DNA of 55,383 bases from Leptolyngbyaceae cyanobacterium SM1_4_3 (GTDB lineage Bacteria; Cyanobacteriota; Cyanobacteriia; Elainellales; Elainellaceae): positions 1-55,383 of the forward strand of contig JAAUTN010000008.1 in the NCBI GenBank assembly GCA_012031415.1, read 5' to 3'. Every line of letters starts with the position of its first letter. Positions within the stretch are counted from its first letter, which is position 1. The position numbers and the translations under genes are program-made. The notes beneath the pieces are model-generated. The model was not told where the DNA came from. It did not search any database and saw nothing but the letters and a program-made list of their open reading frames with translations. Below, one piece after another: positions 2,202 to 3,565 of this stretch.

Positions 2202-2405
2202 ATGTCCATCCTTGCCTCTGTTATTTCAGCAAGTCTTTTGCTAGCTGTAGTAGCCTTTAGCTCCAAAGAAGATAGCTGTGACTCCTCCTATATTAAGCCA
2301 TCCCTGGCTTCTGTGGAAAACCAATCTGCTACATCCGAGCGTCTCCACATCCAATTTTTCCACCGAGGCAGCGGACGGAGAGACACGGCTCAGTGCGCTG
2401 CATAG
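2202..2405 (+). CDS. patX: PatX-like HRGSGR peptide precursor, HetR inhibitor candidate
   Basis: The 67-residue product begins with a short hydrophobic segment (residues 7-19, ISASLLLAVVAF) like a secretion signal, then a low-complexity linker, then FFHRGSGRRDT with HRGSGR at residues 54-59 (bases 2361-2378). RGSGR is the pentapeptide shared by PatS and PatX that binds HetR and blocks its DNA binding. PatX is known as a small protein with HRGSGR encoded beside hetR in many filamentous cyanobacteria. Here hetR begins 260 bp downstream on the same strand. Motif, size, N-terminal segment and position agree, so the call is strong although the rest of the protein is not conserved. The mature peptide and its processing are inferred. 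Confidence 0.85.
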   Translation: MSILASVISASLLLAVVAFSSKEDSCDSSYIKPSLASVENQSATSERLHIQFFHRGSGRRDTAQCAA

Positions 2406-2665
2406 ATGCGCTATATAGGTATAGAGAGAGTATAAAGGGTGCTGACGTAGCTGATCTGCTGTAGATTGACTTCACTTAAGCTTGAAATCGGGTTCTCGCT
2501 CATTTTGGGCAAAAAAAGACCAATTTAAGTGAGTAAGATCAATGCCTAACGTATCGGGATGATTTAAGCTAATGGTGTTTTGACGGTTGATCTGCCTAGC
2601 TACAGAGGCGGGAACAGCTTGAGTCAACCCATTCATTGTCCACACACTGCGCGATCGCCTTTAAG
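2406..2665 (+). promoter_or_regulatory. patX-hetR intergenic region, probable hetR promoter region
   Basis: This gap of 260 bp separates patX from the hetR start. It contains no ORF of note. Start sites for hetR are expected here by analogy with other cyanobacteria, but I cannot assign individual promoter hexamers with confidence. Confidence 0.4.
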
Positions 2666-3565
2666 ATGAGCAACGACATAGATCTGATCAAACGCCTCAG
2701 CCCTAGCGCCATGGATCAGATCATGCTTTACCTGGCATTTAGTGCTATGCGAACCAGCGGTCATCGACATGGTGCCTTCCTGGACGCAGCCGCAACTGCC
2801 GCTAAGTGCGCTATCTACATGACCTATCTAGAGCAGGGGCAAAACCTGCGAATGACGGGTCATCTGCATCACATTGAGCCAAAACGGGTCAAGGTAATTG
2901 TTGAGGAAGTGCGGCAGGCCTTGACTGAGGGCAAACTGCTTAAAATGCTTGGCTCTCAAGAGCCACGCTACCTGATTCAACTGCCCTATGTTTGGCTAGA
3001 GCAATATCCCTGGCAACCCGGACGGGCCAGAATCCCAGGAACTAGCCTCACGTCGGACGAAAAGCGTCAGCTTGAAGAGAAACTGCCCGATAACCTGCCA
3101 GACGCGCAGCTGATCAATTCCTTCCAGTTCATGGACATCATTGAGTTTCTGCATACGCGATCGCAAGAAGATGTACCCGCAGACCGTGCTATGCCGCTGA
3201 GTGAAGCACTGGCAGAACATATCAAGCGGCGGCTGATTTACTCTGGCACCGTCACCCGAGTCGATTCGCCCTGGGGAATGCCTTTCTACGCGCTGACCCG
3301 TTCTTCCTATTCTCCGGCAGACGAAGAGGAACGTACCTACATCATGGTGGAGGACACTGCTCGCTACTTCCGCATGATGAAAGACTGGGCAGATCGTCAG
3401 CCTAAAGTTGTGCGAATTTTAGAGGAATTAGACATTCCCCCTGAGCGAATTGACCAGGCGCTAGAAGAATTAGATGAAGTGATTCGAGCCTGGGCAGACC
3501 GCTATCACCAGTCGGGTGGCTATCCTTTCGTTCTGCAAATGGTAACTGGACCTAAAGAAGAGTAG
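2666..3565 (+). CDS. hetR: HetR, master regulator of cell differentiation and patterning
   Basis: The product is 299 residues, exactly the usual HetR length, and is nearly identical to HetR over long stretches ([46 protein letters not shown]). HetR is a dimeric DNA-binding protein that activates heterocyst differentiation genes and is antagonised by RGSGR peptides. Residues used as functional markers are present: Cys48, Ser152, and the hood residues Glu253, Glu254 and Asp256 reported to contact the peptide. The frame is open to 2636, but the extra ten residues are absent from the family, so I use the ATG at 2666. No clear Shine-Dalgarno precedes it. A strong terminator follows. Confidence 0.97.

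Follow-up and report, generated by a model that had tools for sequence, protein, structure and literature searches.

The window, which is the whole stretch of 55,383 nucleotides analyzed here, carries an ordinary, well-preserved PatX-HetR pair, a known cell-communication system of filamentous cyanobacteria. Our analysis supports the assignment of positions 2202 to 2405 as patX and of positions 2666 to 3565 as hetR, both on the forward strand, and an earlier reading made from the sequence alone was essentially right. We consider it likely that the two genes form a module in which an exported, inhibitory HRGSGR peptide acts on HetR. Some of the details described below may be new: a cysteine-containing, apparently selected tail of the precursor, a promoter variant typical of hetR-linked patX genes, a second PatX that is not linked to hetR, and, in other lineages, PatX proteins with multiple motifs.

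Identity of the open reading frame upstream of hetR

The patX open reading frame (ORF; 2202 to 2405, stop codon included) has an ATG start, spans 67 codons and encodes the 67-amino-acid precursor MSILASVISASLLLAVVAFSSKEDSCDSSYIKPSLASVENQSATSERLHIQFFHRGSGRRDTAQCAA. Residues 1 to 19 (2202 to 2258) form the hydrophobic N-terminus that the sequence-only reading had pointed out, with a mean Kyte-Doolittle hydropathy of 2.2 to 2.5 over the first 15-residue windows, and are predicted to be a probable Sec export signal; a lipoprotein signal was considered and dropped, the sequence EDSC showing no lipobox by eye. HRGSGR, the presumed signal hexapeptide and the analogue of HRGTGR in Anabaena/Nostoc PCC 7120, occupies residues 54 to 59 (2361 to 2378), and the 260-bp intergenic region (2406 to 2665) separates the ORF from hetR, all as claimed beforehand. 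Between the motif and the stop codon lies the tail RDTAQCAA (residues 60 to 67, 2379 to 2402), with Cys65 encoded at 2394 to 2396.

A Pfam search with the ORF gave no match, and its score against the NCBIfam equivalog for heterocyst_PatX (NF047413) was 13.5 bits, under the curated cut-off of 30. However, a score above this threshold was reached in only 2 of 98 related genomes, even though an RGSGR ORF linked to hetR is present in nearly all relatives that have hetR, so that the threshold is tuned to heterocyst-formers and does not define PatX; matches below it were located just upstream of hetR in G001, G002, G003, G011, G026, and other genomes. One match to the model, in a genome without hetR (G030), was set aside as an RGGGR in an unrelated frame. 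With a score under the family cut-off, the identification rests on position, motif, N-terminus, promoter, and same-genus orthologues, and the ORF combines the features by which PatX is recognized: RG(S/T)GR near the C-terminus, a hydrophobic N-terminus, a DIF1-type motif, and co-occurrence with hetR. A published survey counted 159 PatX and 237 HetR homologues (PMC12756182). Because genes like this one score under the family-model cut-off, our data suggest that PatX is undercounted and that the precursor is processed in more ways than the PCC 7120 case shows.

Comparison with relatives, which the sequence-only reading had proposed as a check, placed PatX homologues at the same position. An RGSGR ORF lies upstream of hetR at 136 of 210 hetR loci (113 of them distinct), spread over many families and including nearly the whole order as well as both same-genus genomes, in which the tails read RDTAQCA and RDTAQCAA. 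The loci that have none are mostly those of heterocyst-formers (going by record titles), second hetR copies, or loci cut by a contig end; in G015, no patX was found in the wider upstream DNA of hetR. Among the second, diverged hetR copies, L188, L203, L210, L211, and L213 have no RGSGR ORF within 2.5 kb upstream. A scan of the 7.8-Mb genome for the pattern [HY]RG[ST]GR yielded four in-frame occurrences, and only two of these, the hetR-linked ORF and one other, belong to a short ORF that follows a DIF1-like promoter and encodes a hydrophobic N-terminus. With the full context in two of four motif frames and the ORF present before hetR in relatives, a chance ORF was dropped as an explanation.

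A conserved promoter, which was to be sought ahead of the ORF, was indeed found. TCCTGA at 2141 to 2146 (forward strand) is a DIF1-like -35 element, one mismatch away from the canonical DIF1 sequence TCCGGA, and is followed after 18 nt by GTATCA (2165 to 2170, forward strand), a probable extended -10 region, so that positions 2141 to 2170 read TCCTGATTCACCCTGGAAACTTCCGTATCA (TCCTGA-N18-GTATCA). The element begins 61 nt before the patX ATG, the founding PatX paper (by Elhai and Khudyakov, in 2018) having reportedly set a limit of 69 nt for the DIF1 distance upstream of the start. Of 111 distinct hetR-linked patX genes, 108 have TCCTGA no more than 110 nt ahead of the ATG, versus 3.4 expected in shuffled sequence; the element ends 52 to 58 nt before the ATG in 97 of the 108, and the spacing to GTA(T/A)CA, assessed in 103 genes, is 18 nt in 90 and 17 nt in 11. 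DIF+ promoters are described as having a TCCGGA -35 consensus, with one mismatch allowed, a 17-nt spacer, and an extended -10 (PMC6133370; PMC7377430), and the arrangement ahead of patX follows this layout. Another match to the promoter pattern in this genome (L219) was taken as due to chance, its neighbors not being recognized as regulators.

Two further elements were observed around the gene. An imperfect inverted repeat, TTCCGTATCA-N14-TGAGACGGAA, spans positions 2161 to 2194 between the -10 region and the patX ATG and is a possible regulator site; GTATCA...TGATAC or a similar repeat was also seen in several relatives. On the other side of patX, the gap to hetR measures 260, 495, and 255 bp within the genus, and the part next to hetR is conserved. 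The stretch around GCCTAACGTATCGGGATGATTTAAGC (2535 to 2595) is retained in the genus even as the gap length varies and may contain a promoter of hetR itself.

Tail, possible selection, and cysteines in the precursor

The sequence-only reading had drawn attention to the internal position of the motif. Although the tail RDTAQCAA is present as described, it is not unusual: residues beyond the motif occur in 66 of 84 distinct single-motif, hetR-linked PatX proteins, and this particular tail is common to three species of the genus (in one of them without the last alanine). When the window patX was compared with its same-genus counterpart L005 (which has its stop at codon 67, hence the mismatch there), codons 54 to 66 showed five synonymous changes, two of them in the tail, and no amino acid changes, versus 12 synonymous and 11 amino acid changes in codons 1 to 53. 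In the third species, codons 54 to 66 are identical. As the probability of finding no amino acid change among five of the 28 differences is approximately 0.06 (hypergeometric), the comparison is only suggestive of selection on motif and tail jointly, and the indication for the tail by itself is weak. These data also bear on the idea that we are dealing with a relic, either decayed or untranslated, whose motif was kept by chance, for which one could invoke the shortness of the ORF, its lack of Pfam annotation, and its score under the family cut-off; given the conserved promoter, the exclusively synonymous changes in motif and tail, and the retention of frame and stop in three species, we consider this extremely improbable.

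The cysteine pattern across PatX singles out Cys26 (codon at 2277 to 2279, forward strand) as the candidate partner of Cys65. Among 23 single-motif PatX proteins with a tail cysteine, the mature part contains exactly two cysteines in 19. Two-cysteine tails (CEALQC, CELPNC, CAAPLC, CTTTC, and CSTATC) are never accompanied by a cysteine ahead of the motif (7 of 7), and 12 of 16 proteins with one-cysteine tails (RDTAQC, RDLSQC, RDASEC, RTSC, and others) have one cysteine ahead of it. After collapsing by hand to 55 lineages, exactly two cysteines were found in 14.3 lineages versus 6.2 in shuffled data (a value reached in 0 of 5,000 shuffles) and exactly one in 6.9 versus 18.6 by Poisson expectation; the two-cysteine excess shrinks as related lineages are merged more strictly. 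Additional two-cysteine tails were found in L233, from another family, and in L264, the second PatX that G017 encodes, and sister genera have a Cys-x3/4-Cys arrangement right after the motif.

On this pattern, Cys26 and Cys65 would form a probable disulfide, closing a loop that contains the motif. That such a bond holds the precursor, and that the redox state or a thiol-linked protease governs release of the peptide, is a refinement compatible with the main model; we find it plausible but lean slightly against it, as single-cysteine lineages occur (L060, L144, L149, and L187), most PatX proteins have no cysteine, and the argument is one of residue pattern. In four other loci (L045, L049, L080, and L151; Oscillatoria-type loci and G190), the motif is closely flanked by a cysteine on each side (CDDHRGSGRLEEC and CHRGSGRREFC).

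HetR and the proposed signaling mechanism

The hetR gene (2666 to 3565, stop codon included) is the only one in the assembly and encodes a full-length protein of 299 amino acids that matches the HetR equivalog NF009718 (601 bits versus a cut-off of 489) and contains the domains PF03574 (Peptidase_S48) and PF18460 (Hood). The HetR of a culturable relative, FACHB-471, is 98% identical. By direct numbering, Cys48, Ser152, Arg223, Glu253, Glu254, and Asp256 are all present, and they align with the solved HetR chains (the 4hri/4yrv and 3qod groups). Glu253, Glu254, and Asp256 are reported to contact RGSGR peptides. The earlier claim that the contact residues are intact therefore stands, but this is the rule rather than a distinction and carries little information: R223, R250, and E253 do not vary across the 210 HetR loci, D256 is found in 205 of them, and E254 is found in 185, and the 74 loci that lack an upstream RGSGR ORF show the same pattern, so that the presence of these residues is no proof of a peptide interaction here. 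R223 is required for the interaction with PatS (PMC7476756). At position 152, alanine was observed in 19 of the 210 loci, and since 17 of these 19 have patX upstream, Ser152 is dispensable for the patX-hetR module.

In the mechanism that we propose, patX would be transcribed from the DIF1-like promoter with TCCTGA at -35, and the 67-amino-acid precursor would, by homology to PCC 7120, be exported via its hydrophobic N-terminus. Outside the cytosol it would be processed to a short peptide around HRGSGR, with PatP as the protease suggested by the same homology. The peptide would then reach neighboring cells, bind HetR at its C-terminal Hood domain, and block DNA binding, again as in PCC 7120, and cells committed to some fate would thereby restrain their neighbors. 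In PCC 7120, PatX requires export and processing by PatP (Alr1666), and its HRGTGR peptide binds HetR with a KD of 88 nM and abolishes DNA binding; one cut has been mapped, N-terminal to the motif, in an Escherichia coli reporter (PMC12756182). Because of the tail, a second cut or trimming past Arg59 is likely required here unless a longer peptide is active, and release via cuts on both sides of the motif is a reasonable inference. The Cys65-Cys26 pair may hold the loop around the motif until maturation.

Several known systems share parts of this design. PatX of PCC 7120 and the PatX family in general have in common with our protein a small size, a hydrophobic N-terminus, the H-RG(S/T)GR motif, a DIF1-type promoter near the start codon, and HetR in the genome; the window gene differs from its PCC 7120 counterpart in having HRGSGR instead of HRGTGR, an 8-residue tail with a cysteine, TCCTGA instead of TCCGGA, and a position directly upstream of hetR. 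PatS and HetN are likewise sources of RGSGR peptides that act on HetR, and in HetN, too, the motif is internal and can function (PMC7761841). Unlike the window PatX, PatS is a peptide of 17 amino acids that has its motif at the C-terminus, whereas HetN is a larger protein; neither one has been described as occurring outside heterocyst-forming lineages. In Leptolyngbya BL0902 (GFS31_32390-GFS31_32400), patX likewise adjoins hetR upstream and follows a predicted DIF1 promoter, and this strain resembles our host in being non-heterocystous and having no nif cluster (PMC11298460).

nifH was not found in the assembly (96% complete by the estimate that accompanies it), the sole strong NifH-family match proving on inspection to be ChlL, and the fate under control is for this reason probably not the heterocyst; necridia and filament growth have been proposed as the role of PatX-HetR (PMC12756182), filament breakage being another published suggestion. 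The main ground for caution regarding the mechanism comes from BL0902, in which patX and hetR deletions did not act as those of an inhibitor and its target and the effects of the patX deletion on the transcriptome looked independent of hetR (PMC11298460). Together with the invariance of HetR R223, R250, and E253 at loci lacking an upstream patX, this could mean that PatX is a secreted peptide signal acting mainly on something other than HetR, with the adjacency of the genes reflecting only ancestry and shared transcription. We regard this as quite unlikely, considering that the RGSGR core, the HetR-binding part in PCC 7120 (PMC12756182), is invariant in otherwise divergent PatX proteins and that the linkage of patX to hetR has been retained across many families. 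The lineage represents a clean test case for the role of PatX-HetR before heterocysts: HetR is present once, nifH was not found, the two RGSGR precursors differ in their promoter variants, and release of the peptide requires that the tail be handled.

A second PatX-like gene and multi-motif precursors

The other RGSGR precursor is encoded outside the window on another contig (G000:C431:4169-4387; L249:1351-1569) and has the sequence MRVLTFAMLSGLMLMGLTVNQGVISRSAELSPASSDHHVMGQGGHRRERTYRGSGRREILAFPTTLHSVEQG. Like the window patX, this gene specifies a hydrophobic N-terminus, an RGSGR motif, and a tail past the motif, and it has a DIF1-type promoter at the same distance, a canonical TCCGGA-N17-GTA that starts 61 nt before its ATG. 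It differs in its YRGSGR, its cysteine-free RREI tail, its TCCGGA element, and its location away from hetR. Since it fits the definition of PatX, the genome appears to have two PatX proteins rather than a new class of regulator. Orthologues with 94 and 89% identity and shared neighbors were found in both same-genus genomes, and orthologues of lower similarity in G011, G017, and families f3, f4, f10, and f20. The L249 profile also matches proteins of family f32 that combine RGSGR with an RRE tail and a TCCGGA promoter; we take this family to be Nostocales because of where it falls in the survey rather than by its name.

The two promoter variants sort with linkage. Whereas TCCTGA precedes 106 of 111 hetR-linked patX genes and TCCGGA none at that distance, RGSGR genes away from hetR have TCCGGA in 14 cases and TCCTGA in seven, at least one of the seven being parted from hetR merely by a contig break (Fisher's P of approximately 1e-13, relatedness ignored). 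We speculate, with considerable reservation, that two PatX proteins serve one HetR: the linked TCCTGA copy would be held by a cysteine pair around or beside the motif and mature in a redox-dependent manner, and the unlinked TCCGGA copy would resemble the PatX of heterocyst-formers, which would have retained only this copy of the two. Both the cysteine pairing and the two-gene arrangement are hypotheses worth testing.

A different elaboration of the precursor was observed in other lineages, where 27 of 111 distinct hetR-linked PatX proteins contain two to nine copies of RG(S/T)GR and thus resemble peptide polyproteins. Examples include L189 and L190 (nine copies each), L161 (eight copies), L033, L067, L102, L178, L183, and L193. 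On the HetR tree, only two changes of state are required to account for the multi-motif condition.
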